Below are positions 794 to 18,103 of a DNA stretch of 21,086 bases, in pieces (the first letter of the stretch is position 1; the number at the start of each line of letters is the position of its first letter). The notes under the pieces are model-generated. The model did not search any database, was not told where the DNA came from, and worked only from the letters and a program-made list of their open reading frames with translations. Location of the stretch: positions 1-21,086 of the IMG/VR virus record IMGVR_UViG_3300025669_002485. One strand, written 5' to 3'. The translations under genes were made by a program, and so were the position numbers. The stretch is from a virus.

Positions 794-3790
794 ATGTTAG
801 ACAATACACAATATTTAATTAGTTTTGTAGCAACTGTTCAGGGTGGTAAAATAGCAATCAGTCAACTTCAACAGATGGAACAAACTACTGGTAAATTGGA
901 TAAAGGTATGGTAAAAGCTGGAAAGAGTGCTAATAATTTCTCTCGTATGCTTAAACGCAGTGCTATGGTTATACCTCTTTGGTTTGTATTAAGAAGAGTT
1001 TTTATGGGCATTATGAACACTATTACTAATATGGTTAAATCTTGGTTAGAGTTAGATGATGCTTTAGCAAGAATTAAAACAGTAGTTTCTGCTTCGTCTA
1101 AGTCAATAGAAGCAGATATGATAGCTATTAGACGAACCATTTTAGATACTGCTGTGACAACAAGAGTTTCTATAAAGGAATTATCTGAAACTTTTTATTT
1201 CCTTAGAACTGCTGGATTATCTACTCAAGAAGCAATAGGGGCATTTAAACCTACTGTAGATGCTATGGTAGGAACAATGAATAGTGGGAAAGACACTGCA
1301 AGACTTATGGCAGGTGTTTTTAACACTATGGGAAAATATATAGGAGATAATCTTACAGTAACAGAAAAATTTACAAGAATAGCAGATGTATTAACTTATA
1401 CTTATGCAACTCAGGATGTTCAGCTTCAGGAATTAACCCAATCCTATATGAAATTAGCTCCTTATACTGCTGGAATGTCTGATAGTTTTTTAGAGATGAT
1501 TACAATGTTAGGATTTTTAAATACTCGCTTGTTGCGTTCAGGAAGAACTGGACGATTAACTGGTAGGGCATTTATACAAATAACTAAAAATGCAGATAAA
1601 TTGGCTGGTATTTTTGATGTTACATTTGAGTCAGACAAACCTCTTGGTTTTTTAGACATTATAGGACAAATACATGACAGAATAGGAACAACAGGCAAAA
1701 TATCAGCAAAAGCATCCAAGGCTTTAGAGCAAGTGTTTATGACAAGAGGAGCAGTTGCTGTTAGGTTATTAATAGAAAATTTTGAAGAATTAAAAGAGGA
1801 AATCGGATTGGCAGGAGAAAGCTCTAAAGATTTTGCTAAAAGAATGCGAGAGATTAGAGAAGCTACAGTCACTGCTCAATTTGAAAAAATGAGAAATATT
1901 TTACATACTATGTTTGCAGAGTTTATGAGTGGATTTATGGCTACTGGAGATTTGACTGAAGCTTTAAAAGAGTTTAATGATGGTTTAACATCTTCAATCC
2001 AATCAATCAAAACCTTTGGTTCATGGGTGGGGTGGCTTCAAACCCAAATGTCTCAACTTATATTGGGGATTATGGCATTGCAAAATATAAGACAAAGAGT
2101 GGCACTTGGAGAAATAGGATTTGGGGAAGGAATAGCAGAATATGCCAAATGGCTTCGTGAATCTAAAATTGAACTTATAAGTTTTGCTGAGTGGCAACAA
2201 AGAATAAAAGAAGAGCAAGAAAAAATGAAAGAGATAAGAGAAGAGGAAGTGAAAGTTCAAGAAAAACTTGTCAAGCAAGAAAAAGACCTCCTTACAGATA
2301 TGGAAATTATTTCTTCAGGATTAAGCACTGAATTGAACATAATGAAGGCATTAGAAAACACCCAGTTGAGCATACTAAAGATGAAAAAAATGCAACTCGA
2401 ACTTGATTTGGCTGGATTGGATTCAGACAAGAAAGAGATAGAGTTAGAGAAGGTGCAAGGAAAGATAACAGTAGAAACAATAAAACAACATAAGAAATTG
2501 GCAGATACTTATTTGAAAGCAGAACTTGACATACTGAAAACTATGGGTGTTCATCAACTTGACATACTCGAATATGAATTGAAAATTTTAGAAGGAAGTA
2601 AGAATTTAGTAGATTCTCGTAAACGTCAAGAGAAAATGGGAAAAGTCAGAACTAAACTGGCTAAAATAGAGAAACAATGGGGTGATAAATTAGGAAAAGG
2701 TTTGTGGGAGTCAGTTGATGCTCATTATAAGATGACTAAGGAGCAACTATATGAATTGGAGTTGGCAGAAGCATTGTCTGGGGTTGAGGGAGAAAAGCTA
2801 AGAATAGAGGAATTGAAATTACTAACGACAAAGGAACGTGTTAATCTTCTTGGCTACTATTCACAAGTTTATGCAACTCAAGAATTGAATATGGCTAAGG
2901 CTTTAGGGGCTAGTGAGTTTCAGATATTGCAAATAGAAAGGGAACAGTTAGAAGCAAGAAGAGACCAACTTCTTCCTTTAGCATATCAAGCAAAACTATT
3001 GAAAATTATAAATAAAGAGGAAATTTTACGAGCAAAAACCTTACTTAACCAACTTTCTACATATGGTGATATAATGAAAGAGTTTGAAAAGGCAACTCCA
3101 TTGGAAAGACCTATGCTATTGAAAAGGATTCAAATGCAACGAATGTCACCTGAAGAACTTTATGGAGAGATTAAAGGTTCTGCTTATATTGAAAAAATAT
3201 GGCATGATAACATGGATAAATTTAGTGAGATGCAAAATCTTATGGCAAAAAAGGCTAGTGCAGAGGCAAATAGACTTGATATTTGGAAAGTTGCATTTCC
3301 AGACCCCAAACAAACTGAGTATGATATTAAAAGACATGGGCAAACCATGATTACAGAGGCAGAACTATTTCTTAGTAACTTTGCTGAACTTTATGCAAAG
3401 GCAAAAGGAAAGACGGATGTTCGAGAACAACTTGTGGATTTATTTGCACCTTCTAAAGCAACAGCATTTTGGGCTACTTGGACAGACAGAGCATTAGAAG
3501 CAGTTCAAGCATTTAAAACAGCATATCAAAATGCTATTGAAATAACTCCAAAAGGAAAAGGTGCTGAAGCAGAAGGTGTTGGTCTAAAATCGCAAATTAT
3601 TAAAAACTTAGAACTTTTTATCAAAGGTAAACCAGTTGCTCAAATGACTATTGAAGCAATGACTATCCAATTACCTCCAGATACATTGGAGAGAGTATCA
3701 TTTGAGACTGCAAGTATAGTAGAAAGAAGATTAAAAGAAAATGAGGATTTACAAAAATTTTTAGCGGATGTCATCAGACCACATCTTTAA
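794..3790 (+). CDS. Phage tail tape measure protein, TP901 type
   Basis: The 998-residue protein scaffolds assembly of the long tail tube and sets its length. Residues 80-360 resemble the core of the TP901/PhageMin_Tail family: ELSETFYFLRTAGLS near 129-143, a conserved region with TRIADVLTYTYATQDVQL at 194-211, and a Gly/Arg-rich stretch around 250-260. A hydrophobic helix lies at 57-78. From about 465 to 760 the chain is mostly charged heptad-like helix, as expected for a rod filling the tail lumen. By the usual length rule for siphophage tape measures (about 0.15 nm per residue), the tail would be near 150 nm. The start is set by GGAAG nine nt upstream, immediately after the preceding stop. 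The size and neighbours argue for a long-tailed phage. The family call is firm. I see no lytic transglycosylase or peptidase motif in it. Confidence 0.93.
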   Translation: MLDNTQYLISFVATVQGGKIAISQLQQMEQTTGKLDKGMVKAGKSANNFSRMLKRSAMVIPLWFVLRRVFMGIMNTITNMVKSWLELDDALARIKTVVSASSKSIEADMIAIRRTILDTAVTTRVSIKELSETFYFLRTAGLSTQEAIGAFKPTVDAMVGTMNSGKDTARLMAGVFNTMGKYIGDNLTVTEKFTRIADVLTYTYATQDVQLQELTQSYMKLAPYTAGMSDSFLEMITMLGFLNTRLLRSGRTGRLTGRAFIQITKNADKLAGIFDVTFESDKPLGFLDIIGQIHDRIGTTGKISAKASKALEQVFMTRGAVAVRLLIENFEELKEEIGLAGESSKDFAKRMREIREATVTAQFEKMRNILHTMFAEFMSGFMATGDLTEALKEFNDGLTSSIQSIKTFGSWVGWLQTQMSQLILGIMALQNIRQRVALGEIGFGEGIAEYAKWLRESKIELISFAEWQQRIKEEQEKMKEIREEEVKVQEKLVKQEKDLLTDMEIISSGLSTELNIMKALENTQLSILKMKKMQLELDLAGLDSDKKEIELEKVQGKITVETIKQHKKLADTYLKAELDILKTMGVHQLDILEYELKILEGSKNLVDSRKRQEKMGKVRTKLAKIEKQWGDKLGKGLWESVDAHYKMTKEQLYELELAEALSGVEGEKLRIEELKLLTTKERVNLLGYYSQVYATQELNMAKALGASEFQILQIEREQLEARRDQLLPLAYQAKLLKIINKEEILRAKTLLNQLSTYGDIMKEFEKATPLERPMLLKRIQMQRMSPEELYGEIKGSAYIEKIWHDNMDKFSEMQNLMAKKASAEANRLDIWKVAFPDPKQTEYDIKRHGQTMITEAELFLSNFAELYAKAKGKTDVREQLVDLFAPSKATAFWATWTDRALEAVQAFKTAYQNAIEITPKGKGAEAEGVGLKSQIIKNLELFIKGKPVAQMTIEAMTIQLPPDTLERVSFETASIVERRLKENEDLQKFLADVIRPHL

Positions 3791-4234: not shown

Positions 4235-4975
4235 ATGAAGAATTATTGCATAGATTGTCTTAACAAAGGAATTAAGACTGAAATTAGTTTAAAAGTGAAA
4301 CGATGCCAGTCTTGTGCTCAGAAAAATAGATTTAAAAATAAAGAAAATCATCCTTTTTTTGGTAAGAAACACAGCGAAACTCATAAAAAGAGAATTAGTA
4401 AAACACTGAAAAAAGCTTATAAAGAAGGGAGAAAAAAAGTTTGTCATACTAAAAAATCTAAGAAAATAATTAGCGATAAAGCTAAAGAAAGATTTAAAGA
4501 CCCTACAAAACATCCGAATTTCAAAGATGGACGAACTTTACAAAAATATTACTGTAAAGAACCCGATTGTAATAGAGAGATAAGTTTATGTTCTGCTTTA
4601 TATCATCAAGGTAGATGTCAAAGTTGTGCAAAAAAAGGAAAACTTGGTTATTGGTATGGTAAAAAACGTCCTGAACATAGTAAAAAAATGTCAGGTAAAG
4701 GAAGTCCAACTTACATAGATGGAAAAGGTAATGACCCTTATCCTTTAGAATTTAATAATAAACTCAAGGAACAAATTCATAAAAGAGATAATCATAAATG
4801 CCAAGTTTGTAATAAATCTCAATTAGAGAAAGGTAAAAAGTTATCAACTCATCACATTGATTATAACAAGGAAAATAATAAAGAAGATAATTTAATTTCT
4901 TTATGCCAAAATTGTCATGTAAAGACAAATTATAATAGAAAAGTTTGGAAAAAATATTTTAAAATAAAAGAATAA
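4235..4975 (+). CDS. HNH homing endonuclease with zinc-finger and NUMOD3 DNA-binding modules
   Basis: This 246-residue, very Lys-rich free-standing endonuclease is the type that mobilises its own gene within phage genomes. Visible order: a Cys4 module (C5, C8, C24, C27), a NUMOD3-like motif at 41-58 (GKKHSETHKKRISKTLK), a linker with DGR near 98-100, a second Cys4 module (C107, C112, C128, C131), a second NUMOD3-like motif near 141-154, then an HNH domain. The HNH domain has C189/C192 and C224/C227 zinc pairs, catalytic H206-H207, N219 and H228. It sits between two tail genes. No ribosome binding site precedes its ATG, only TAATAA, and an in-frame stop lies just upstream, so translation probably depends on re-initiation after the upstream gene. 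The Cys4 modules closely resemble those of the minus-strand endonuclease at 12096-12818. Confidence 0.92.
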   Translation: MKNYCIDCLNKGIKTEISLKVKRCQSCAQKNRFKNKENHPFFGKKHSETHKKRISKTLKKAYKEGRKKVCHTKKSKKIISDKAKERFKDPTKHPNFKDGRTLQKYYCKEPDCNREISLCSALYHQGRCQSCAKKGKLGYWYGKKRPEHSKKMSGKGSPTYIDGKGNDPYPLEFNNKLKEQIHKRDNHKCQVCNKSQLEKGKKLSTHHIDYNKENNKEDNLISLCQNCHVKTNYNRKVWKKYFKIKE

Positions 4976-4991
4976 AAAGGAGGAACTAAAT

Positions 4992-5645
4992 ATGACAAAT
5001 TTAAAATTTTATGTCAATGAGGTTGATGCTACTAAAGATTACGATACTGAACCTACTCATTATAAGGAGTTAGACCTTACGTTAGATTACTTCATTTGGA
5101 CTGCTGGTAGTGATGATGTAAAAGATGGAGTGGATGAACCTGGAGAGGATGAATTAAATGAAGCTTCTACTATTATCCACGATACAGATGAAACTCAGGT
5201 AGCTTATTGTTTAATGTATGATGACAGTGCAGATGAATTAAGAGAAGTTATTGGTATGGGTGCGAATAGTAAATTTGTATTTTGTGTTAGATTTGATGGA
5301 GATACTGCTTCTGAACCAAGATTAGAAGCTTGGGATGATGATACTCATACTACTATTGATAAACATTGTTTGGGTGATGGAATACCAGCAAATTCTATGC
5401 TAAAGAGTGCTTGCACTACTTTTAATCCACCTGGGGCTAGTTGGGCTAAGGTAGGTGGAACACATACTGAATTAGCTGGAGGTAGTAATTATCTTTTGCT
5501 TAATGGTGGCACTGGTGCAATTATTTTAGATTCTGGTGAGACTTATAGGGAACTTTATTATAATCTGGCTATTGTGCTCGAAGGAGGAGATACTGAACCA
5601 GGTGCGTTTACCTTCGTGTCTACGATAAGATTTACCTACAATTAA
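4992..5645 (+). CDS. Acidic virion structural protein of unknown function
   Basis: I do not recognise this 217-residue protein. It is strongly acidic, with dense Asp/Glu between residues 38 and 130. The C-terminus is Gly-rich and beta-strand-like and ends in a run such as FTFVSTIRFTYN, typical of phage tail or appendage beta domains. Only two or three Cys residues are present, with no zinc-finger pattern. It starts with a near-perfect ribosome binding site (AAGGAGG, eight nt spacing), the strongest in the tail operon, which suggests a protein needed in many copies. It lies between the inserted HNH gene and other small tail genes. A tail tip, tail tube decoration or fibre role is inferred from context. 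Confidence 0.85.
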   Translation: MTNLKFYVNEVDATKDYDTEPTHYKELDLTLDYFIWTAGSDDVKDGVDEPGEDELNEASTIIHDTDETQVAYCLMYDDSADELREVIGMGANSKFVFCVRFDGDTASEPRLEAWDDDTHTTIDKHCLGDGIPANSMLKSACTTFNPPGASWAKVGGTHTELAGGSNYLLLNGGTGAIILDSGETYRELYYNLAIVLEGGDTEPGAFTFVSTIRFTYN

Positions 5646-5664
5646 TTTAAGAAAGGAATAATAA

Positions 5665-6054
5665 ATGAATAATTTACCTTTATACACTTTGATATTCGAG
5701 GATGATGAGAAGTTTATTGGAGGCACAGATTATAGAGATACTAAGTGGTTATCTATCCCCTGCAATCAGAAAATCAGGAGAATATTTTACAGATTGCCCA
5801 CAAATGATTATTTAACTTTAGGGAATTTTTCTCAAATCTACCACTATGTTGAAGCCGTTCTAGATTTAAATGGCAAAAACAGAGGTAAGACTAATATAGA
5901 ATTTGTTTGTTTATTATTGGAAAGAGGAGATAAAGTTTTGCAATATAAAATTAATCAGGCAACAGGAAATATAAATATGGAAATCTTTGATAAAGATGAT
6001 GATTATATACAAAAACTTAATATAAGTGGTTGGAAATTAGGAATAACAAATTAA
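5665..6054 (+). CDS. Hypothetical tail-operon protein
   Basis: Unrecognised 129-residue protein. It is mixed in composition, with many aromatic residues and beta-strand-like segments, and has no transmembrane stretch, signal peptide or catalytic motif that I can see. The ribosome binding site (AAAGGAA, about seven nt before the ATG) supports the start. Intergenic gaps of 19 and 16 nt to its neighbours show that it belongs to the tail operon. A small baseplate or tail-tip component is the simplest guess from context, but nothing in the sequence demonstrates it. Confidence 0.8.
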   Translation: MNNLPLYTLIFEDDEKFIGGTDYRDTKWLSIPCNQKIRRIFYRLPTNDYLTLGNFSQIYHYVEAVLDLNGKNRGKTNIEFVCLLLERGDKVLQYKINQATGNINMEIFDKDDDYIQKLNISGWKLGITN

Positions 6055-6070
6055 AAAGGAGGAGAATAAT

Positions 6071-6601
6071 ATGGAAGATAAATTAGGAATTACAGATAAA
6101 ATACTGCTGAGGTTAATCAAAAAAAGAAAGTTGAATGATACTTTTAAATTAATTGGAGACGGTTACGTTGAGCTGAGGCGAAAAGATGGAAGTGTTATTG
6201 AAGGTTCACAAGAAGAAATCAAGGGAAAAAATATAGTTAATCTTGGAAAAGCACACGTAGCTAAACTATTAGGTGGAGTAGATTCAGTAGATGATTTTGA
6301 AGCTATAGCTATTGGAACTGGAACTAATGCTGAAAATGATGCTGATACTGCTTTGCAGACTGAAATTGACAGACAAGTATGTTCGCCAGTTCCAAGTTAT
6401 GAAGCAGATTATAAATGTGTATTTGAAAGAACTTTTACTTTTGATTCTGGTGAGGAATACGCCCTTTGGGAAGCTGGATTATTTGACTCAGCAACTGCTT
6501 CTGGTTCAACAATGTTAGATAGATTTAAGTTTGCATCTGTGAAGAACGTGGATGCTGACACCGATTTGTATTGCAAAATCACACTTACGGTAGCTGGATA
6601 A
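6071..6601 (+). CDS. Phage tail appendage protein with IGTGT-type domain
   Basis: The 176-residue protein contains a region recurrent in phage tail-fibre-associated proteins. It has VNLGKAHVAKLLGG at 56-69, the FEAIAIGTGTNA segment at 76-87, an ALQTEI motif at 94-99, then ALWEAGLFDSATA at 131-143 and a final ITLTV strand. The pattern of a short Gly/Thr turn, Asp-rich loop and paired beta-strands suggests a small beta-sandwich used for trimer or receptor contacts. The first 50 residues look helical and charged and may be the attachment part. The start is fixed by an excellent AAAGGAGGAG ribosome binding site. It sits just upstream of the lectin/hub fusion gene. Family-level recognition is by pattern memory only, and the function is inferred as structural. 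Confidence 0.75.
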   Translation: MEDKLGITDKILLRLIKKRKLNDTFKLIGDGYVELRRKDGSVIEGSQEEIKGKNIVNLGKAHVAKLLGGVDSVDDFEAIAIGTGTNAENDADTALQTEIDRQVCSPVPSYEADYKCVFERTFTFDSGEEYALWEAGLFDSATASGSTMLDRFKFASVKNVDADTDLYCKITLTVAG

Positions 6602-6616
6602 TAAAGAGAATAAATA

Positions 6617-9499
6617 ATGTCATACGAACTTACTGACCTTCCACAGTCTGCAAATGTCCAGGCTTTCTGGAAATTTGAAGAAGCAAGTGGAATTATCTAT
6701 GATGAAACTACCAATGATAATGATGGTAGTTATAATGGAGCATTGTATCAACAGACTGGCAAAGTAGATTATGGTCTGGGATTGGATGGAGATAATGATA
6801 AAGTTAGTGTTAATGATAGTGCTAGTTTTGATGGAATTATTGCTAGTGGCAAAATTTCTATATCTATTTGGGTAAAATTTAATAATCTTACAGGGGGTCG
6901 TTTCGTTGATAAACGAGATGATGGTAATAATAAGAGGCAATGGGGTTTTGGTTATGATGCAACAAATGTAAATTTTATCACAAATGATGATGGAACTGCT
7001 GGTGGTTGGCTTGGGGTTTCTTTTCCATTATCTGGTAACATTACTACTGGTGTTTGGTATAATATTATGGGAGTTAATGATGGAACTAATGTAAAACTAT
7101 ATCTTAATGGTATTGAAAAGGGCACTGATACAGGAAATGCTACTATTTTTGATGGTAATGCCCCTATTGGAATTGGTGCTTATATTGGTGATGGAAGTGA
7201 AAATTCTAGTAATTTGAATGCCACAATAGATGAAGCAATAATTTGGGATAAAGATTTAACTCCTACTGAAGTTGAAGATGTATATAAACTTGGAAATGCA
7301 GAATGTTTGGAAGATACTCTTACTCTATCTGATGAGGTTAAGATTAGTCTTCGTCCTGAAAGAGAGGAATTGTCCGATACTATTAACTTATCAGATGAAA
7401 TACATGTTGCTAGATTATTTTATGCTGATGATTTGGAAGACACTATAAATTTATCTGACGAGATTGATGTTGAAACCTCTAAAAATTTAAAAGATACTAT
7501 AACTTTAAGTGACGATTTACATCTTGAAGTTATTGAACGTCCAGACATTGACAATGACTTTAGAAGTTGTATTGAAGTATTAGAAGATATAGATAATAAA
7601 TTTAATTCGGTTATCGAAGTTAGAAATGATAATATGAATGTGTTTAATAGTGTATTTGGTGTAAGAACTGACATTGGAGGTTATAACGACCTTAGAACAG
7701 AATTATTAGTAAGACATGACATCTTAAATGACTTTAGGACATTAGCCAAAGCACCAACAACTACTCCTTCTGTTCCAACTGGATTTGAAGGAAAAGATTG
7801 GGAAACCCCTGCTTCGGTGGCTTTTCAATCTAAAGGAAAAGAATACATTAAAGTTTATTTTGATAGTGTAGAACAAACAAATGTAGATATAGATACTATT
7901 ACTATAAATAAAATTTTAGATGGTGCTCATACTGCTACTTTTGTATTAGGAAAAGCTTATGACAGTGGAAAACCTGATATGGAATCTGTAGTAGAGATTA
8001 AATATGATGATAAATTACTTTATAAAGGTTACATTGTTCAAATAATGCCTACAGATGAACCTGATACTATTAAAATTAATTGTCAAGATAAATTTTGGAA
8101 ACAGAATAAAACTAGACATGATTTTTCAGTGGGTCATCCTCCAAGAGAAATAGGGGAAAGGACTTTCTATGAAACTATTAAAGAAGCATTGTTTTCAAAA
8201 TTTGGATGGGCTGTTGACATAGGCAATTTCACTCCACAAAACATAGACTTAAATGATACCCAAGAATCTAATGCTATTACCCAATTAATTAATGAAAGTG
8301 GTAATTATTCTTGGTATTATGATGAGAACGGAAATAAGAAGTTATGGAGAGCAGGAGAAGGTAGTATAATTAATTTACAACGACAGGAATTAAATACTAA
8401 TATTAATCTTTATCATGTATTGCGTCATAATTTAACTGACGATGTTTCTAATATAATTAACAAATACAAAGTAGTTATGGGAGATAAAGTTGAAAAGAAC
8501 ATTGATTACATAGCCAATGAAGGTTCTATTGAACATATGGCAATTCAATCCCAATCTATTCATGAAAAGGTTTATCCTGCTTGGAGTAATGATGATTATA
8601 CTAAATATGCAAAAAACACTGTTTCTGAATTTGGTATGGATAATGTAAAAAAAGTAGATGAAGAAATAGCAAAAGAAGCTTATACTAAATATTCATTTAA
8701 AAGTCTTAGAGGAGTTAATGAAGAATGGGATGACATTTATCCTCCTTACATAGTAATATCTGTGCCAAGAGGAAGATTTCTTGGTGGATATTTTATAACT
8801 ATAAAAGATTATAAAAAACGTGGAGAAGTGGTTGGTTTTAAGGATGAAGAAATCTTAACAGAGGGATTTACTATAGATTATGAAAACGAAACTGTAACTC
8901 TTGATGAGCAAGCTTATATAATACTATATAAGACAAGCAAGAAAGTAGACCCTAGTTATATGACAAAGCCTACAATTAAAGTTCATTTATGGAAAGTTAA
9001 ACGTTGGGAATGGGAAGAGGAAATGTCAGGTGAAGAAGAATATGAAAGTCCATTAATTTTTAATACTACTAAAATGTGTGATTATCCTGAAACTATTATG
9101 CAAACTTTAAGTCTTTCTAATTTAACAGTTCAGGAAGGTGGTCAATATACTAAACCAGGATACTGGGGAAGAGATGATGATGGAGATTTGGTATATTTTC
9201 CTGAAGAATTAGTAGTAATTCCTTCTTGGAATGATACTGAATTTGCTAAGGATTATGCTAATTATCTATTAAGTCAGACTTGTAACAAAAAGACCACTGG
9301 AAATATTAATTTGACTTTAGATACGATTTGCCATTACCATATTGACCTCTCCAAACGAATAAACATTACAGGAGTTACTGAAGAGGCACTGAATATAGAT
9401 TCGATGAATTTCAATATCGGTAGCTGGCTTGTTACTCTTAATCTTAAAAATGGTCGGGAATATAAAAGGCAAACCAGCATCCCGTATCGAGGAGAATAA
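6617..9499 (+). CDS. LamG-lectin / tandem-repeat / tail hub fusion protein
   Basis: A 960-residue three-part protein. Residues 10-226 match a concanavalin/LamG-like sandwich (Laminin_G_3 type): ALYQQTGKVDYGLGLDGDND, then ISIWVKF, a GVWYNIMGVNDGTNVKLYLNG stretch (in part) and a closing IDEAIIWDKDLTPTEV. Residues 231-379 hold two families of short repeats, listed separately. After a Thr/Pro linker (381-389), residues 395 to about 900 look like a gp27/GPD-type tail hub, with the strand run TINKILDGAHTATFVLG, a VEIKYDDKLLYKGYIV strand pair, a segment TFYETIKEAL, and NYSWYYDENGNKKLW. The hub would cap the tail tube, while the lectin would bind a host-surface or virion glycan. Carrying a lectin at the N-terminus of the hub is unusual, since receptor binding is generally placed at the C-terminus or in a separate fibre. 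The ribosome binding site is weak (AAAGAGAA). Confidence 0.82.
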   Translation: MSYELTDLPQSANVQAFWKFEEASGIIYDETTNDNDGSYNGALYQQTGKVDYGLGLDGDNDKVSVNDSASFDGIIASGKISISIWVKFNNLTGGRFVDKRDDGNNKRQWGFGYDATNVNFITNDDGTAGGWLGVSFPLSGNITTGVWYNIMGVNDGTNVKLYLNGIEKGTDTGNATIFDGNAPIGIGAYIGDGSENSSNLNATIDEAIIWDKDLTPTEVEDVYKLGNAECLEDTLTLSDEVKISLRPEREELSDTINLSDEIHVARLFYADDLEDTINLSDEIDVETSKNLKDTITLSDDLHLEVIERPDIDNDFRSCIEVLEDIDNKFNSVIEVRNDNMNVFNSVFGVRTDIGGYNDLRTELLVRHDILNDFRTLAKAPTTTPSVPTGFEGKDWETPASVAFQSKGKEYIKVYFDSVEQTNVDIDTITINKILDGAHTATFVLGKAYDSGKPDMESVVEIKYDDKLLYKGYIVQIMPTDEPDTIKINCQDKFWKQNKTRHDFSVGHPPREIGERTFYETIKEALFSKFGWAVDIGNFTPQNIDLNDTQESNAITQLINESGNYSWYYDENGNKKLWRAGEGSIINLQRQELNTNINLYHVLRHNLTDDVSNIINKYKVVMGDKVEKNIDYIANEGSIEHMAIQSQSIHEKVYPAWSNDDYTKYAKNTVSEFGMDNVKKVDEEIAKEAYTKYSFKSLRGVNEEWDDIYPPYIVISVPRGRFLGGYFITIKDYKKRGEVVGFKDEEILTEGFTIDYENETVTLDEQAYIILYKTSKKVDPSYMTKPTIKVHLWKVKRWEWEEEMSGEEEYESPLIFNTTKMCDYPETIMQTLSLSNLTVQEGGQYTKPGYWGRDDDGDLVYFPEELVVIPSWNDTEFAKDYANYLLSQTCNKKTTGNINLTLDTICHYHIDLSKRINITGVTEEALNIDSMNFNIGSWLVTLNLKNGREYKRQTSIPYRGE
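7307..7525 (+). repeat. Four tandem DT-LSDE protein repeats within the lectin/hub gene
   Basis: The encoded residues 231-303 contain four copies of a 13-residue unit: LEDTLTLSDEVKI, LSDTINLSDEIHV, LEDTINLSDEIDV and LKDTITLSDDLHL. They are spaced 18-21 residues apart. The consensus is L-x-D-T-I-x-L-S-D-E-I-x-V. They lie immediately after the LamG domain and read as short amphipathic beta units, perhaps a stalk between lectin and hub. The protein-level similarity is clear, while the DNA copies have diverged, so this is not a recent duplication. Confidence 0.9.
7541..7753 (+). repeat. Five 14-residue DI-NDF repeats within the lectin/hub gene
   Basis: Residues 309-379 of the lectin/hub protein carry a second, different repeat set: PDIDNDFRSCIEVL, EDIDNKFNSVIEVR, NDNMNVFNSVFGVR, a two-residue-longer copy TDIGGYNDLRTELLVR, and a terminal HDILNDFRTLAKA. 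The period is 14 residues and the consensus is x-D-I-x-N-x-F-x-S-x-I-E-V-R. They follow directly after the LSDE repeats and precede a Thr/Pro linker into the hub domain. They look like a spacer whose copy number can change, and their DNA has also diverged between copies. Confidence 0.88.
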
Positions 9500-9502
9500 A
9501 TT

Positions 9503-10234
9503 ATGTCCGAAAAAAGTTTAAATGACCGTATAGCCCAACTGGAAGATAAAATAAAAAATCTGGCTTCTCAGTTATCAATGGTGCACAAGAGCGTTAAGGG
9601 AAAAGGAAATTACGTTAAGCCCTATTCTAAAGTAAGTCCTCCACCTTTGAGAAGCACTTATAAATCAGTAGGACGATTAGGGGGAGGATTATCTGCTAGA
9701 TATGCAGGAGGAGTTCTTTGGAATGATGCAGAGACAAAAGATATTAAATGGTTTAGTCAACCTGAAACACCAACTAAAGGTTATAACAAACATGGTCATT
9801 CTCGTTATGCAGGAGGAGCTTTACCTATTAATACTTTAGAATTAGTAGAATATAAAACTAACGATGCAGGAGAGATTATAGATAAAGATGAAAAGGCATT
9901 AAATAAACATTGTCAGAGTTTTTGGACAAAAGAACCCGAAATTGCTAAATCAGATGTAGAAGGTTATGAAGATGTGGAAAAGATTGGAAATTTTTTAGTT
10001 GAATTTGACCCAGAGACTGGAACATGGCAAACATTAATAGATGTTCAAAGAACTTATATAGTGCGAAGAAATGCGGATGGAACTATTAAAACAGACCTAA
10101 GTGTAAATAAAATGAAATCTCCTTTAAATGATAAGGATGAAATAGATACTCATGTTAATCAGAATATGGTATGGGACACAAATAATCTAATATGGAGATT
10201 TTATGCAGTTTGGAGACCTTATGTTGCTCCATAA
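9503..10234 (+). CDS. Tail appendage protein with N-terminal coiled coil and RYAGG repeats
   Basis: Unrecognised 243-residue protein. Residues 5-28 form a classical heptad pattern (LNDRIAQLEDKIKNLASQL), probably a trimerising coiled coil. A flexible Pro/Ser/Gly region follows. Two copies of a short motif, ARYAGG at 65-70 and SRYAGG at 100-105, are each followed by a hydrophobic turn. The C-terminal half is soluble and Asp/Lys-rich, with no catalytic signature. The start has a good GAGGAG ribosome binding site four nt after the hub gene stop. Its place right behind the hub suggests a tail-tip or fibre-like structural protein. That is inference from context and the coiled coil, since no family was recognised. 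Confidence 0.83.
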   Translation: MSEKSLNDRIAQLEDKIKNLASQLSMVHKSVKGKGNYVKPYSKVSPPPLRSTYKSVGRLGGGLSARYAGGVLWNDAETKDIKWFSQPETPTKGYNKHGHSRYAGGALPINTLELVEYKTNDAGEIIDKDEKALNKHCQSFWTKEPEIAKSDVEGYEDVEKIGNFLVEFDPETGTWQTLIDVQRTYIVRRNADGTIKTDLSVNKMKSPLNDKDEIDTHVNQNMVWDTNNLIWRFYAVWRPYVAP

Positions 10235-10251
10235 TATAAAGAGGAAATAAG

Positions 10252-11325
10252 ATGGCTTGGTTAATAAATCCTGATGAATTGGCTAATAAACCTACTTATG
10301 GAAGAATATTAGTAGAAGCTATAAGAGCAATCAATGAAAGACAAAAAGCATGGGGTCGGGTTCAGTCAGTATTTTATAAATATGGTTTAGTAAAAACAAG
10401 TCTTGGAACTCCTGATGGTGGAATAAATATCCCTGCTTTAGATGCTCTTGATAATAGTCTTATGTGTGCTGAACAAATTCGTCAACTCAGAGACATTATA
10501 AAAAATTTAGCTGATGACATTTGGATTCCTGATGAATTTGATGATGATAATAATCCTAAAAAATATAATTGGATAGATGAAAATCCAGATAATTTGTATT
10601 ATAGAACTTTTGGAGATGGTTATACTTGGAAAGTTGCTAATATTAATAATGAATCTTTTTATGATATAACAATAAAAGAAATTTTAAAATGTATAGAAAA
10701 ACTTGATTGGATAGTTATTTATAAAGATAACGATTTTAGTTGGGGAGGTAATAAATATGTTTACATTAGTCGTTATCCCACAATTCCTCCAATTACTCCT
10801 ACAGAAGTTTGGCAAGCTTGTTTATCGGATACTCCTACATTTTGGAGAAATTATTTAGATGAATTTGGACTAGGAACAAACTTAGAAGAAATTACTGATG
10901 CTGACGCTAAAGCTTATATAATAAGGTATTATTTGCATTTTCCTACTTATATACCAGAAGACCCCCTTCTCCAAGTGAAACTTAATGGTAAATTTGGTAA
11001 TTATCGTGAGAATAAAGAAGTTCTTCAATTTTACAAAGGAACTTGGACAGGAACGGGTTCTCCTCCTTGGAATGCAGGAACTTCTCTTCTTTATGAATTT
11101 TCTCCAATTTCAGGAGGTTCTCATAAAATCTTTGATTTAGACTCTTCGGTTGTAAGTTCTGATGGTAATATAAGAATTTTTATAAAAATAAAAGCTGATG
11201 AAATACAACCTCTTGTTGATTGGGATGTTATACCTCCTGTTAATTGGGAAGCTGTAATAATATCTCAAGACCCTACTTTAATGATTAAAAGTCAGTGGGT
11301 TTATCCAGGAGAAATAATAGTTTAA
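10252..11325 (+). CDS. Hypothetical virion protein, last gene of the tail operon
   Basis: Unrecognised 357-residue protein. The first 95 residues are mostly helical (RILVEAIRAINERQKAWG near 18-35, then IRQLRDIIKNLADDIW near 76-91). The remainder is rich in Trp, Tyr, Pro and Asp and looks like a beta-rich surface domain, with FGDGYTWKV and a Gly/Ser/Pro turn region around GTWTGTGSPPWNAG. No enzyme motif, signal peptide or membrane segment is visible. A purine-rich AGAGGAAA ribosome binding site supports the start, 17 nt after the previous gene. It ends just before the strong terminator, closing the tail operon. A tail-tip or appendage role is inferred from position. Confidence 0.82.
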   Translation: MAWLINPDELANKPTYGRILVEAIRAINERQKAWGRVQSVFYKYGLVKTSLGTPDGGINIPALDALDNSLMCAEQIRQLRDIIKNLADDIWIPDEFDDDNNPKKYNWIDENPDNLYYRTFGDGYTWKVANINNESFYDITIKEILKCIEKLDWIVIYKDNDFSWGGNKYVYISRYPTIPPITPTEVWQACLSDTPTFWRNYLDEFGLGTNLEEITDADAKAYIIRYYLHFPTYIPEDPLLQVKLNGKFGNYRENKEVLQFYKGTWTGTGSPPWNAGTSLLYEFSPISGGSHKIFDLDSSVVSSDGNIRIFIKIKADEIQPLVDWDVIPPVNWEAVIISQDPTLMIKSQWVYPGEIIV

Positions 11326-11345
11326 AAAAATAATACAAAAAAATT

Positions 11346-11376
11346 AGCGGTCTTTAATTTAGACCGCTTTTTCTTT
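11346..11376 (+). terminator. Bidirectional rho-independent terminator between convergent operons
   Basis: A perfect 8-bp inverted repeat, AGCGGTCT (11346-11353) and AGACCGCT (11361-11368), encloses a seven-nt loop and is followed by TTTTCTTTT on the + strand. On the minus strand the same stem is followed by the complement of the A-run at 11337-11343, giving a run of seven T. It lies 21 nt after the last + gene and 23 nt beyond the stop of the last minus-strand gene. It can therefore end both transcripts. Confidence 0.92.
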
Positions 11377-11391
11377 TATCTTCCTTCTTTT

Positions 11392-12096
11392 TTAATTTTC
11401 TCTTATCCTCCATAACATTCTTATAAACCGCAAAGTATCCCTAAAAGGATGTATCTTACTCTTTCTTCCTTTTTCATAAATACACTTGATTGGCACACTT
11501 GTAATTTCTCCTCCTGACTTTCCTACTCTAATTAACATTTCACTTTCCCACTCAAATCTATCACTTCTAAATTGTAATTCAAACACACTTTTATGCACTA
11601 ATCTAAATCCGCACTGGGTATCAGGAATATTACGACCAGCCAAAATACTGATAATTTTACTCATAAACTTATTGGTTAATCGTCTAATTAAAGGCATTCC
11701 TACAGGGTTATGGAAACGATTTCCTACTATTATTTTAGCTTGAGGTCGTTGTTTAAGTGTTTCTATAAATTTGGGAATATCTCTAATATCGTTTTGTCCG
11801 TCACTGTCAAAAAATAAAACATAGTCCGTTTCTAATCCATTATAATATTTCTTAGTAGCTGTAGCGTAAAAAGCTCCTTGACGCATTGCAAACCCTTTAC
11901 CCATGTTGTTTGTGTATGAAATAAGGTTAAAATTAGTCCACTTTTGAACTGTTTTTAAATAAGTAAGAGAATTATCAGTTGAACCATCATTTACTATAAT
12001 ATACTTATAACCACTTCTCCATAATCTTCCACATAAATCTACAATGTGTTTTTCTTCATTAAATACAGGACTAATAATTACAATTTTAAAATTCAT
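11392..12096 (-). CDS. GT2 family glycosyltransferase, polyprenyl-phosphate sugar transferase-like
   Basis: A 234-residue single-domain GT-A enzyme that should move a sugar from a nucleotide donor. It resembles the dolichyl/polyprenyl-phosphate mannosyl or glucosyl transferase branch of GT2. Visible motifs: PVFNEE (10-15), VNDGSTDNS (35-43), GKGFAMRQGA (66-75), DSDGQND metal-binding motif (97-103), GNRF (125-128) and DTQCGFR (159-165). There are no C-terminal membrane helices, so it would be soluble or peripherally bound, unlike GtrB-type enzymes. The start overlaps the preceding gene's stop by one nt (TAATG), with AGGAG seven nt upstream inside that gene. It is the last gene of the minus-strand operon. 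Acceptor and sugar cannot be read from the sequence. Confidence 0.93.
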   Translation of the reverse strand: MNFKIVIISPVFNEEKHIVDLCGRLWRSGYKYIIVNDGSTDNSLTYLKTVQKWTNFNLISYTNNMGKGFAMRQGAFYATATKKYYNGLETDYVLFFDSDGQNDIRDIPKFIETLKQRPQAKIIVGNRFHNPVGMPLIRRLTNKFMSKIISILAGRNIPDTQCGFRLVHKSVFELQFRSDRFEWESEMLIRVGKSGGEITSVPIKCIYEKGRKSKIHPFRDTLRFIRMLWRIREN

Positions 12097-12818
12097 TATA
12101 ATACTCCTAATTCCTCTAAATCCTCTTTCATTAAAACTTTAATGTTCTTATTTGGGTATAATTTTCTAAATTGTCTAAACTTCTTTTTTGCTATATCTCT
12201 CCAATATCCTTTAATTTCAATGTAAGTATCAAACTCTGGCAAATAGAAATCAGGACGATAAGTCATTTCATCCAAGTCAAATGCCTTGGGTTCGTATAAC
12301 CACTTTATTTTATTACAATCCAAAAAGAAAGCAAATTTAATTTCGTAAGAAGACCTCATCCAAATTCCTTTATAATAATCTCCTTTTCCTCTACCTATAT
12401 GTTTATTATTATATATTTTTCCATAAGCAGAACTTTTTTTCCCAGAATAATATTTAGAATTACAATTATGACATCTTTTAGCTCTACAAACTATTTCAAT
12501 TTTTATCCCTTTCTCTAAGCAATCTATACAATAATTTATTTCTCTATATTTTAATTTACCACTTTTAAAACAATATTTAACTGCACAACTTGGACATCTT
12601 CCCCCTCCATAAATTCCACTTTGCCAATTTATTTCCTCTCCACAGTCTGAGCAATAATAAGTCTTGGAACATCTACCATCTATTAGACCATGTTTATTTC
12701 CTTTCATTCTTTTACTATTAATTTTCCCATTACATTTTCTACATCTCCCCTGTCCATACAAAGCAGTTTGATAACAAACTTCATTATCACAACCTTCTTC
12801 TATACAATAATGTTTCAT
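12096..12818 (-). CDS. Zinc-finger array PD-(D/E)XK endonuclease, mobile-type
   Basis: A 240-residue protein with three Cys4 modules in a row (C5/C10/C26/C29; C56/C59/C75/C78; C97/C100/C116/C119). A C-terminal Vsr-like or PD-(D/E)XK nuclease core follows: E159 in SSYEIKFAF, then RPDFYLP with D190, and IEIKG with E201 and K203. Such zinc-finger nucleases occur as free-standing homing endonucleases in phages. The first Cys of each module follows Tyr or an aromatic pair, and the second pair is in a G/K-R-C-x2-C context. Modules one and two are separated by an H...DGR....YYC linker that also occurs in the HNH enzyme at 4235-4975. The gene is integrated by a 4-nt ATGA overlap upstream and a TAATG overlap downstream. 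This is tighter than expected for a recent insertion. A repair-type Vsr role is an alternative. Confidence 0.85.
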   Translation of the reverse strand: MKHYCIEEGCDNEVCYQTALYGQGRCRKCNGKINSKRMKGNKHGLIDGRCSKTYYCSDCGEEINWQSGIYGGGRCPSCAVKYCFKSGKLKYREINYCIDCLEKGIKIEIVCRAKRCHNCNSKYYSGKKSSAYGKIYNNKHIGRGKGDYYKGIWMRSSYEIKFAFFLDCNKIKWLYEPKAFDLDEMTYRPDFYLPEFDTYIEIKGYWRDIAKKKFRQFRKLYPNKNIKVLMKEDLEELGVL

Positions 12819-13285
12819 TTTACTTCTTCTACTATTTTTGCTTTTTCAATATCTTTTGGAGTAGTTTTAAATATGTTCTGGTCTTTTCTAATATCTCTAT
12901 TCACAACTGAGAAACATAAATTTATAAAACTACAACAATTAATAAATGCTGTAGCTTTACCTCTCCAATTCAAATAAGCATTATAAAGATATGCTAAATA
13001 AGAATATTTATCTCCCATTTGAGCTTCTGCACAATAAATAATCTTCTCTTTTTCTTCTTCTGTTAATCCATTTATTCTTAACAATTTAGTTTTATATAAA
13101 AATTTATTTGAGTATTTAGTAATTTTACTTTTTTTAATTCCGTTTCCTTTAGCCCCTATTGTAAATTTATCATTTATGATTAACTCTACATGGTTATAAT
13201 TACATTTTGAGACTTTACGAATTAGGAAACCTATAAAATCGAAGTAATAACATACTAAAAGAATATCACAAGATTGTAGGGTCAT
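12815..13285 (-). CDS. Permuted papain-like (YiiX/NlpC-P60 type) cysteine hydrolase
   Basis: A 156-residue protein resembling the circularly permuted papain-like amidases (YiiX/YaeF, C92 type). These carry the catalytic His before the Cys. Here the N-terminal strand with CDILLV is followed by NHVELII (H32), and the Cys lies in NCCSFINLC (C117 or C118). The family commonly has Glu or Gln after Cys-Ser, and here it is Phe. That may alter activity. It has no signal peptide. Family members act on peptide or lipid-linked amide bonds. In a phage, lysis, DNA-entry or host-surface roles are possible but unproved. The gene overlaps its neighbours by ATGA on both sides, with AGGAA before the start, so it is part of the glycan operon. 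Confidence in the fold is moderate. Confidence 0.65.
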   Translation of the reverse strand: MTLQSCDILLVCYYFDFIGFLIRKVSKCNYNHVELIINDKFTIGAKGNGIKKSKITKYSNKFLYKTKLLRINGLTEEEKEKIIYCAEAQMGDKYSYLAYLYNAYLNWRGKATAFINCCSFINLCFSVVNRDIRKDQNIFKTTPKDIEKAKIVEEVK

Positions 13286-14384: not shown

Positions 14385-15032
14385 TCAATTATTTGTTTTT
14401 ATCCATTCTTTATTGTGCCTGTTTTTTAGCCTTCGAGATGCCTGGTTATGGTAAATTACAATATCCTTTTCTTTTAACATATGTAGGGGCAAAGTATTAT
14501 TTTGATTAGGAAACACTATGTAGCTATAAGGCAATTCATAAACTTTCAAATCCTTCCTTCTATTTACAACTACTTCCATACTTCTCTGCTCTATGGTATT
14601 TGGGCTTTTGGAAATTTCTTCAATGAACTCCTCCACTAACCCAATTACCTTTGAATTGTAATTTAGATACATTGTGCCACTAAGAAGATGAAATTTATTC
14701 CCATCCTTTTGTTTTCGCCACCTCCACATCCAGTTCAAAAAATGCACACCAATATCGTATTCATTAGGAATCTCCCAGAAAAGAGAAGGATACTTTTTTA
14801 CTTCAGCATCTGAATCAAGGAACACAATACTTGACCCCTCATGTTTATGAAGCATTTTAAGAATAAATTCCGACTTATAGCTCGTATTAGCTTGCCATGA
14901 ACCTCTATCTTCAGGATACTCTATATCATATTCCAAATTAAACTTCTTTAAAGATGGAATTAGAAATTTATTTATTACATCAATATAAGGAGTTTCTGCT
15001 GTCGCATATGAACAAAAAATAATCTTCTTCAT
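14385..15032 (-). CDS. GT-A fold nucleotide-sugar transferase
   Basis: A 215-residue protein with a GT-A-like arrangement: an N-terminal strand KKIIFCSYAT, a long helical segment, then SIVFLDSDAEV with the D73-x-D75 metal-binding motif. An acceptor-loop-like LLSGTMYLNYN (116-126) and a C-terminal YHNQASRRLK (194-203) follow. This organisation resembles the nucleotide-diphospho-sugar transferases of the PF03407-like type. No membrane segment is seen. Its ATG overlaps the upstream methyltransferase stop by ATGA, with AAAGGAT upstream. Together with the GT2, DUF115-like and capsule-type genes it makes the fourth sugar-transfer candidate in the operon. The family call is by motif only. Substrate and linkage are unknown. 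Confidence 0.75.
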   Translation of the reverse strand: MKKIIFCSYATAETPYIDVINKFLIPSLKKFNLEYDIEYPEDRGSWQANTSYKSEFILKMLHKHEGSSIVFLDSDAEVKKYPSLFWEIPNEYDIGVHFLNWMWRWRKQKDGNKFHLLSGTMYLNYNSKVIGLVEEFIEEISKSPNTIEQRSMEVVVNRRKDLKVYELPYSYIVFPNQNNTLPLHMLKEKDIVIYHNQASRRLKNRHNKEWIKTNN

Positions 15033-15775
15033 TTCTTTATCCTTTTATCTACTGTTACTTTTCCGTGAAAACAATATTGATAACCTACTTCCCCATATTC
15101 ATCGTAAGTGGTTGTTTTATAAATTCCCCTTCTTTTCCAATCATCATTACTAATCATTTTACCACAAGGACAAATTATTCCATGTTTCATTTCTTTAGGA
15201 ACTCTTACCAAACAAATAAGATTAAACCCATTTAATCTATCAGGAACTTTCTCTAAAGATACTAATTCTAATCCAATCTTTTTAACATAATTTCTTATTT
15301 CTTTTTCACTAAAATGTTCCCAATGCCATTTAGAACGTTTTACAGGAATGCTTATATGAGGCACAGAGAAAATTAAGTATTCCTTAGTCCATTCTTTAAA
15401 TTTATCAAATAATTTATCAATATCTTTTATATGTTCCACTATCTCAAAAGCAACCACAACATCATACTTTTCTTTAATGTCAAAAACATCTCCACAAAGA
15501 TAGTTTATGTTTTTTCTTTTCCAATAAACATTGGCATAATCTATAGCTTCTTTACTATCGTCTATTGCTATTACCTTTCTTGCCTTGTTTGCTAATAAAA
15601 CACTCCCATAACCACATCCACAACCCAAATCTAATACTGTGTCAGTATTTTTAACTATTGTATAGGCTCTTTTATATCTATCTATATGAGTGGGTTCTAT
15701 TTTGTCTAAAGAAATTGCTACTTGTCTTTCTCCAGAATTTAATCTTTTATCTTGGTCTTTTCTTTGTTCGTTCAT
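15029..15775 (-). CDS. Class I SAM methyltransferase with C-terminal cysteine motif
   Basis: A 248-residue SAM-dependent methyltransferase of the Methyltransf_11/23 type. Motif I is VLDLGCGCGYGS (47-58), the acidic ribose contact is IDDSKEAI (71-78), then CGDVFDI (94-100), with FEIVEHI at 110-116 as the post-motif. After the Rossmann core comes a 50-residue extension with CPCG (202-205) and a later YCFHG (234-238). This is a possible small metal-binding finger not usual for the family. The first 30 residues include SGERQVAIS, reminiscent of O-methyltransferases in polysaccharide loci. It overlaps both neighbouring genes by ATGA. The acceptor is not evident; a sugar hydroxyl or carboxyl is likely in this context. 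Confidence 0.9.
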   Translation of the reverse strand: MNEQRKDQDKRLNSGERQVAISLDKIEPTHIDRYKRAYTIVKNTDTVLDLGCGCGYGSVLLANKARKVIAIDDSKEAIDYANVYWKRKNINYLCGDVFDIKEKYDVVVAFEIVEHIKDIDKLFDKFKEWTKEYLIFSVPHISIPVKRSKWHWEHFSEKEIRNYVKKIGLELVSLEKVPDRLNGFNLICLVRVPKEMKHGIICPCGKMISNDDWKRRGIYKTTTYDEYGEVGYQYCFHGKVTVDKRIKK

Positions 15776-16818
15776 TTTCTTGTTCCTATTAATACAAAAT
15801 ATCCTCTAACTTTATGCTTATAAACTTTAACATTAAATCCTGCTTCAGTAAATAATTTTCTTACACTTATTTCTCGATTTAAAGCCAAACTATTAATTTG
15901 ACTTCTTCGTTCTTTTGCTCTTGTTGGAATGACTACTACTTTGCATAAAGGTAATATTTTTTCTTTTAATAATTTTATTTCTTCATTGTTCATATGATAT
16001 AAAACAAAAGAAGCAACCAAAGCATTGCAAGTTGGTTTATTATTCAAAGCATAATTCTTGAAACTGGTATTGTAAAGTTTTACTTTTTCATTATTTCCCC
16101 ACAGTGATTTTATACAATCCACAGTTATTTGAGCTTGTTTATAATATTTCTCTTGCTTTTCTAAGGCAATAAGACTTTTAGCATGTTGCATAATAGACCA
16201 AATAAACATACCTGCATTGCATCCTATATCCAAAACTCTACATCCATCTAAAACAGATAAATGTTTGGAAGCAAAATCAAGACGTTGTTTTACATTTCCA
16301 TGTGTATGATAAGGTTTAATAGCTTTATCCCATTTCTTGGCAATTTTACTATGAATTATTTCAGGGATTATGGTATCTTTTATTGCTTTAAGATTACCAA
16401 AATTATAATCAGGATGACTATAAACAACATCTACAGGAATTTCTTTAATACCTAATTGTTGGGCACAGAACAATCTATGTCGCCCATCAACTAATAAAAT
16501 ATCTCCATCTCTTCCAATAGCAACTTCCACACTTCTCATGTTTGGGTTTTGAATGTAACCTTTTGTTTTAATGTTTTCATACAAACCTTCCCAATTATAA
16601 ACAGATTTTTTACCTGATTTAAACAATAAAAAATCCCTATGAAATCTACTATCATAAATTGTTTGCTTGGTTGTATCCCAACTACCTGTTAAAATCTCTC
16701 CAATTAATTTAAACTTTTTTTCATTAATTCTTCTTACTCTAGTAGTTATACACCCACCTATTGGAGAAACTCTTTTTACTACCTTTGGGTCTATAAATAT
16801 CTCATTTTTCTTTCTCAT
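15772..16818 (-). CDS. ParB-like domain fused to SAM methyltransferase
   Basis: A 348-residue two-part protein. Residues 97-131 carry a ParB/sulfiredoxin-fold signature: VEVAIGRDGDILLVDGRHRL with the conserved DGRHR at 111-115, followed by ALG-type and IPVDVVY strands. Residues 190-345 are a methyltransferase, with VLDIGCNAG (195-203), an acidic ribose contact at E220 and a VLYHMNNEEI-like catalytic loop. ParB-like folds include nucleotide- and ATP-binding enzymes as well as DNA-binding proteins. In polysaccharide loci such fusions may act as small-molecule kinases or modifying enzymes, not in chromosome partition. I infer a carbohydrate role here from the neighbours. GGAGG near the start supports translation one nt after the radical SAM gene. 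It shares ATGA with the next gene. Confidence 0.82.
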   Translation of the reverse strand: MRKKNEIFIDPKVVKRVSPIGGCITTRVRRINEKKFKLIGEILTGSWDTTKQTIYDSRFHRDFLLFKSGKKSVYNWEGLYENIKTKGYIQNPNMRSVEVAIGRDGDILLVDGRHRLFCAQQLGIKEIPVDVVYSHPDYNFGNLKAIKDTIIPEIIHSKIAKKWDKAIKPYHTHGNVKQRLDFASKHLSVLDGCRVLDIGCNAGMFIWSIMQHAKSLIALEKQEKYYKQAQITVDCIKSLWGNNEKVKLYNTSFKNYALNNKPTCNALVASFVLYHMNNEEIKLLKEKILPLCKVVVIPTRAKERRSQINSLALNREISVRKLFTEAGFNVKVYKHKVRGYFVLIGTRK

Positions 16819-16819
16819 A

Positions 16820-18091: not shown

Positions 18092-18103
18092 TTCTTTTTC
18101 TCC

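Follow-up and report, generated by a model that had tools for sequence, protein, structure and literature searches.

Two nuclease genes and their Cys4 modules

A virus record of 21,086 nt, IMGVR_UViG_3300025669_002485 (the window), contains two genes coding for nucleases that carry small four-cysteine (Cys4) modules of one kind. An earlier sequence-only reading had proposed that the two open reading frames (ORFs), located on opposite strands, have these modules and a linker in common, and the coordinates and strands were confirmed. The HNH endonuclease ORF is flanked by two small genes of the plus-strand tail-gene cluster (tape measure, 794–3790), and starts directly behind the upstream stop. 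The PD-(D/E)XK endonuclease ORF overlaps each of its two minus-strand neighbors by a few bases; a glycosyltransferase gene is among the genes of the minus-strand cluster. No group I intron around the ORFs and no other Rfam family was found in the window at E ≤ 1, and no tRNA was found. The features of the two genes are as follows.

4235–4975, plus strand: HNH endonuclease ORF with an N-terminal Cys4/NUMOD3 region (246 aa; free-standing; Pfam; junction empty in L265, L266, L268, and L269)
4241–4327, plus strand: Cys4 module H1, rare subtype with an LNKGIK insert (module profile, E 3.4e-13)
4343–4423, plus strand: NUMOD3-type segment (HPFFGKKHSETHKKRISKTLKKAYKEGR region; Pfam NUMOD3, best stretch residues 37–55)
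4508–4546, plus strand: linker of HPNFKDGRTLQK type ahead of H2 (sequence)
4547–4639, plus strand: Cys4 module H2, C-x4-C subtype, ending in GRCQSC (module profile, E 6.9e-11)
4739–4948, plus strand: HNH catalytic domain (Pfam HNH; alignment of 24 proteins)
12096–12818, minus strand: PD-(D/E)XK (T7 endonuclease I-like) endonuclease ORF with three Cys4 modules (240 aa; phmmer, alignment, fold comparison)
12723–12812, minus strand: Cys4 module P1, C-x4-C subtype, GRCRKC (module profile, E 2.7e-9)
12672–12692, minus strand: linker HGLIDGR ahead of P2 (sequence)
12573–12659, minus strand: Cys4 module P2, long-loop subtype, GRCPSC (module profile, E 7.1e-12)
12450–12536, minus strand: Cys4 module P3, rare subtype with an LEKGIK insert (module profile, E 1.0e-9)
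12099–12377, minus strand: PD-(D/E)XK catalytic domain (alignment of 20 proteins, phmmer, fold comparison)

The HNH protein contains two Cys4 modules, KNYCIDCLNKGIKTEISLKVKRCQSC close to the N-terminus and HPNFKDGRTLQKYYCKEPDCNREISLCSALYHQGRCQSC, while the PD-(D/E)XK protein contains three, INYCIDCLEKGIKIEIVCRAKRCHNC, NKHGLIDGRCSKTYYCSDCGEEINWQSGIYGGGRCPSC, and KHYCIEEGCDNEVCYQTALYGQGRCRKC. The last of these occupies residues 2–29 and has the C-x4-C spacing of the second HNH-protein module; it had been missed in the sequence-only reading, whose count of two modules per protein holds for the HNH protein and not for the PD-(D/E)XK protein. All five modules were recovered by a module profile of 22 rows, the five themselves included, with E-values from 3.4e-13 to 2.7e-9. 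A DGR-type linker precedes 28 of 49 HNHc modules and 19 of 35 PD modules. In AlphaFold models, the well-modeled modules have short strands and then a helix beginning at RCxxC, with flexible linkers in between; judging from this secondary structure, the modules look like treble clefs.

The catalytic domains belong to different superfamilies

The HNH protein scored above the Pfam cut-off for both HNH (E 1.9e-5) and NUMOD3 (E 4e-6). In an alignment of 24 proteins, H206, H207, N219, and Cys 189/192/224/227 of the HNH domain are invariant. Likewise, E159, D190, E201, and K203 of the PD domain are invariant among 20 aligned proteins, 18 of which match Phage_endo_I at E ≤ 0.01. The window PD protein itself gave only subthreshold Pfam matches, to Phage_endo_I and DUF790; because its Phage_endo_I score is under the cut-off (17.8 vs 29.1 bits), the domain is referred to here as T7 endonuclease I-like and not as a member of that family. 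The phmmer match of the PD protein to T7 endonuclease I had an E-value of 6.2e-5, and Bax1 and T7 endonuclease I ranked first in a Foldseek search with the PD model (E 4e-3 to 1e-2). A VIA comparison of the model with I-Bth0305I gave a Z of 7.3 (root-mean-square deviation of 2.8 over 78 residues), a Z under 8 being weak on its own; the VIA-align superposition covers mainly catalytic residues 137–240, and is uninformative for the modules.

The assignment of the two nucleases to different superfamilies, HNH and PD-(D/E)XK, made in the sequence-only reading, is thus borne out by Pfam, phmmer, and fold comparison. The two catalytic domains are unrelated, with an alignment score of 26 compared with a shuffle mean of 27.5.

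The modules are similar beyond their cysteines

To control for cysteine spacing, alignment scores were compared with those of 3000 shuffles in which the cysteines were kept in place and all remaining residues were shuffled. The array of one window protein aligned with that of the other with a score of 110, compared with 42.8 ± 7.0 in the shuffles, none of which reached the observed score. The scores of module pairs 1/3 (104), 2/1 (86), and 2/2 (93) were also reached by none of the 3000 (z of 7.6 to 13.5 for the arrays and the three pairs). Thus, the similarity extends beyond generic cysteine spacing, the trivial explanation named when the likeness was first noticed. A search with the PD protein retrieved both HNH-protein modules (E 1.1e-8 and 2.1e-6), and a DNA pattern for YCIDC...RCxxC, present twice in the window, did not occur in 100 dinucleotide shuffles.

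Many residues common to the two window arrays are encoded by different codons. There was therefore no recent DNA copy, and the relatedness is at the protein level. When whole arrays were ranked, the positions of the two window genes relative to each other were only 47th and 38th of 99; their best partners were found in other phages, often attached to another nuclease class, and only a rare C-DCL-KGIK-EI insert ties the two genes specifically. Exchange between the two window genes was rejected on the grounds that the codons differ and the whole arrays are not closest to each other. Of the proposal that the modules were exchanged or recruited from one pool, the pool, which spans several nuclease classes, stands; exchange within this genome is not supported.

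One module pool, several nuclease classes

In viral contigs, the module follows the pattern YCIDC-x-(K/E)EI-x(n)-RCxxC, often behind an "NPxYxDGR" linker. The DNA pattern for YCIDC...RCxxC matched 116 stretches, and the linker pattern matched 29. In most of the IMG/VR relatives of the PD protein, Cys4 modules precede the nuclease domain. The partners of the module comprise C-terminal HNH, T7-endonuclease-I-like PD-(D/E)XK, Vsr/DUF559, and GIY-YIG domains and two other HNH types. The module is N-terminal of the C-terminal HNH, PD-(D/E)XK, and DUF559/Vsr domains, and C-terminal of GIY-YIG and N-terminal HNH domains, where a helix-turn-helix-like stretch often follows. A portable unit drawn from one pool, as put forward in the sequence-only reading, is therefore seen with HNH, PD-(D/E)XK, Vsr/DUF559, and GIY-YIG nucleases. 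Among the partner domains suggested for a profile search, HNH, GIY-YIG, and Vsr were found; LAGLIDADG was not seen with the module, no LAGLIDADG profile having been run.

Pfam named HNH, HNH_3 with NUMOD4, GIY-YIG, and DUF559 (in one case with Vsr just below the cut-off) in representative proteins, in which Phage_endo_I also remained just below the cut-off. For the Cys4 module itself, no curated Pfam model reached the cut-off when proteins were scanned one by one, and no Pfam or NCBIfam name was obtained at cut-off in the window proteins and representatives. The only named NUMODs in the scanned proteins were NUMOD3 and NUMOD4, located on other segments where stretches were given.

Module subtypes also cross class boundaries. 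In a subtype table whose automatic parsing put a few rows in the wrong place, the C-x4-C and long-loop subtypes are each present in HNH, PD, and Vsr types, and the C-KxNEIS subtype in PD and HNH types. When 2.9 million viral contigs were scanned with an exact degenerate pattern for the LxKGIKxEI insert, one further carrier came up, the DUF559-type protein L275, so that the three known carriers are three different nucleases. In 50,697 phage records, tblastn with the three-module PD array gave no match at E ≤ 1; the sampled examples are therefore metagenomic, and the array seems to be confined to uncultivated phages, or else too diverged. Whole-record searches revealed as many as 20 module copies on one phage contig, and single contigs with two or three nuclease classes at once.

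Several carriers of the module or its pattern have less familiar domains. L004:3001-3702 is NUMOD3-rich and contains a single Cys4 module; neither Pfam nor PHROGs names its C-terminal domain, whose FDF...VEFH stretch may represent a nuclease of EDxHD type. The Cys4/DGR proteins L055_7088m, L128_5356m (reverse-strand numbering), and G001:22750-23445 have in common a terminal "HHI.....HxxxHxxAYxYL" domain that belongs to no named family and may be a degenerate HNH. Short DksA/TraR-like proteins (L028, L037, L047, L049, L136, L203, and L220) likewise contain the YCIDC...RCxxC pattern, and the finger of the GIY-YIG protein L029 gave a weak match to phrog_54 (DksA-like; E 0.002).

Modules do not follow their C-terminal nucleases

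We compared 105 modules from 67 proteins. Among HNH, PD, and Vsr types, the nearest neighbor of a module belonged to the same class in 44.8% of cases, compared with 39.6% for permuted labels (p 0.23). When all classes were included, the values were 45.7 and 28.0% (p 0.0014), and most of this signal came from a separate group, with an N-terminal nuclease and a C-terminal finger. Nuclease identity and module similarity were not correlated (Spearman −0.02 for HNH and −0.07 for PD). Thus, module similarity among the C-terminal classes follows neither nuclease class nor nuclease identity. At the DNA level, an HNH and a Vsr-type gene are 75% similar over 187 nt, and a GIY-YIG and an HNH gene are 71% similar over 279 nt, both values being inflated by AT-rich DNA. 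Overall, module shuffling between nuclease classes is well supported by these sequence comparisons.

Empty sites, insertions, and allelic replacement

The junction that holds the HNH ORF in the window is empty in four tail-cluster relatives (L265, L266, L268, and L269), with no ORF between the flanking tail genes, and is occupied by another HNH ORF in L264. The next junction, behind the homologue of 4992–5645, is unoccupied in the window, L265, L266, and L268; there, L264 carries a gene of HNH/NUMOD3 type and L267 one of PD/Cys4 type. This L264 nuclease shows NUMOD3-like segments but lacks Cys4 modules.

Further differences, clean insertions among them, were found between G001 and G002, which are 97–99% identical over long stretches. 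The Vsr-type gene G001:60033-60704 is represented by 12 nt in G002, and the HNH gene G001:76886-77632 is an insertion difference relative to G002. A relative of the PD gene, G002:53497-54180, is missing from G001, the junction there differing by more than the ORF. At one site, the two carry different nucleases, a PD/Cys4 gene in G001 (82150-82821) and an HNH/Cys4 gene in G002 (82663-83367). One flank of this site is 97.3% identical and the other 71%, and the two genes end in the same codons, IREKG(V/E)SK(V/I)D. Gene copies of G001 and G002 differ by 0–5 synonymous changes, too few to gauge selection.

The HNH gene G002:35962-36294 contains a patch that matches the HNH gene at 11519-12220 (86.7% DNA identity over 211 bp) and is missing from its G001 allele, which points to conversion between HNH copies at different loci. 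This gene and its counterpart, G001:38565-38897, are 111-aa HNH ORFs in which half a Cys4 module is fused straight onto the HNH domain; the ORF looks like a deletion derivative.

Two other loci may be mentioned. L267:7076-7855, a homing-type gene two genes downstream of the PD/Cys4 gene, encodes a LAGLIDADG-like protein with YILGVTYGDGWV and an N-terminal helix-turn-helix-like stretch. In the window, a minus-strand cluster at 15029–19135 appears, by sequence, to contain methyltransferase-like and radical-SAM/B12-type ORFs, an odd cargo for a phage.

Interpretation and alternatives

The two window genes are probably free-standing phage homing endonuclease genes, in which a common pool of Cys4 modules has been joined to different nucleases by recombination. 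Each protein would be a chain of small units that contact DNA, namely Cys4 modules, DGR linkers, and NUMOD3 segments, attached to an exchangeable cutting domain. At least four kinds of nuclease have the pool in common, and recombination between the many genes of this type in one phage would join the arrays to different cutting domains. I-TevI, I-HmuI, and I-Bth0305I (PMC3943268, PMC2988022) suggest, by analogy, that the array would bind lengthwise to an extended target located at a gene junction, keeping the nuclease positioned at the proper distance. The genome of a co-infecting phage that lacks the gene would then be cut, and repair would copy the gene into the cut gap. Both proteins are predicted to bind zinc, to contact DNA through their modules, and to cleave it, and their genes to home.

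Several observations weigh against this interpretation. Within a class, module similarity is high solely above about 70% nuclease identity, and the missing class signal is partly saturation, since modules of ~25 aa diverge fast. Most loci were gathered by the YCIDC or DGR..YYC pattern, which favors similar modules. An empty site of the window PD gene was sought via its neighbor at 12815–13285, and no relative of that neighbor was found. AlphaFold confidence is low for module P3 and the linkers. Finally, the arrays of the PD and HNH genes that occupy the same site in G001 and G002 stand 39th and 59th for each other, and the idea that same-site nucleases share arrays was rejected on this basis.

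What the modules contribute to binding is a separate matter. They may be spacers or backbone clamps that fix the distance between DNA-binding parts and the nuclease with no reading of sequence, an explanation that could well be correct, though we stop slightly short of favoring it. The single Cys4 finger in the linker of I-TevI, a GIY-YIG enzyme of phage T4, is a distance determinant and redox switch (PMC2988022), and is followed by NUMOD3, the order also seen in the window HNH protein. I-TevI finger plus NUMOD3 aligned with L004 with a score of 84, reached by none of 5000 Cys-fixed shuffles, mostly via NUMOD3, and the unlike arrays of the same-site pair fit a spacer as well. On the other hand, the I-TevI finger is spaced C-x1-C-x10-C-x2-C, unlike the C-x2(4)-C of the window modules, does not form arrays, belongs to a protein with another catalytic domain, and is not recognized by the module profile. 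Its score against the Cys4 module was reached by 561 of 2000 Cys-fixed shuffles, and it was not found in a PDB search; homology beyond the cysteines was therefore not demonstrable. The window PD protein also speaks against mere spacers, as there is little N-terminal of its nuclease but tandem modules (up to three), and few other candidates for recognition.

That the modules read DNA bases, and thereby constitute a portable targeting unit, is conceivable but rather doubtful. In its favor, the arrays differ in the number and subtype of their modules and are exchanged between nucleases, and different nucleases are found at one site (G001/G002) and at one gene junction (L264/L267). Against this, the same-site arrays are not especially alike, the L264 nuclease of the shared junction lacks Cys4 modules and has NUMOD3-like segments, and different homing endonuclease classes choose the same gene independently (PMC2988022). 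Of the "portable DNA-targeting unit" of the sequence-only reading, portability across several nuclease classes was upheld; targeting was not, given the unlike same-site arrays and the role of the I-TevI finger in setting distance. A further possibility, which we consider unlikely, is that the Cys4 module serves any nuclease class as a cassette that reads sequence, being placed ahead of HNH, PD-(D/E)XK, Vsr-type, or GIY-YIG cutters, such that a target is kept while the cutter changes, or gained through a module swap.

Domestication of the genes, as resolvases or as weapons against competing phages rather than selfish homing genes, appears quite improbable: the protein nearest to the PD domain in sequence, T7 endonuclease I, resolves Holliday junctions, and domesticated homing nucleases such as Odn of phage ICP1 exist (PMC8263062), but the patchy presence of the genes, their exact insertion between conserved genes, and the many copies per genome argue otherwise. 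Convergence on a generic four-cysteine zinc ribbon is barely credible, since, although the pattern also matches DksA/TraR-like fingers of unrelated proteins and Pfam gives weak zinc-ribbon matches, the observed scores are beyond all Cys-fixed shuffles, linkers and indel subtypes are common to the arrays as well, and DNA-level similarity is seen across nuclease classes.

Relation to known systems

The reading of the window genes as homing endonuclease genes with a common module pool has clear precedents. NUMODs are modular DNA-binding regions common to homing endonuclease classes, arranged as beads on a string and subject to domain shuffling, and different classes occur at one gene (PMC3943268, PMC1564403, PMC2988022, PMC8263062). 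Zinc fingers beside HNH domains are known in phage homing elements (PMC11855218). The Cys4 module resembles NUMODs as a small, predicted DNA-binding module common to unrelated homing nuclease classes, and the window HNH protein has a NUMOD3; the Cys4 pool differs in reaching T7-endonuclease-I-like PD-(D/E)XK and DUF559/Vsr domains, and in having no curated Pfam model at cut-off in the proteins scanned singly. T7 endonuclease I, whose catalytic E, D, and E-x-K are kept in the window PD domain, is a stand-alone resolvase, whereas the window protein has three Cys4 modules ahead of this domain. I-Bth0305I is a phage homing endonuclease with a fold related to that of the PD domain (by the weak VIA match above), but it has an EDxHD set instead of E-(x)n-D-(x)n-E-x-K. 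In T4-like phages, the mobE/hef and SegH/MobC replacements likewise bring nucleases of different classes to, or close to, a single gene (PMC2988022), whereas the same-site genes of G001 and G002 have one zinc-module family in common.

Searches of the openly licensed literature turned up no account of the Cys4 module, nor of a fusion between it and T7-endonuclease-I-like domains. Modular homing enzymes are already known; what is added is a module, unnamed in Pfam, that has at least four nuclease types as partners. These natural sequences thus offer many joinings of one small zinc module, including to T7-endonuclease-I-like partners, which are not usually counted among homing nucleases. With G001 and G002, which are near-identical and differ by single insertions, the gene, the empty site, and the allelic replacement are all in hand, making the long-standing question of how homing enzymes acquire new targets directly testable.

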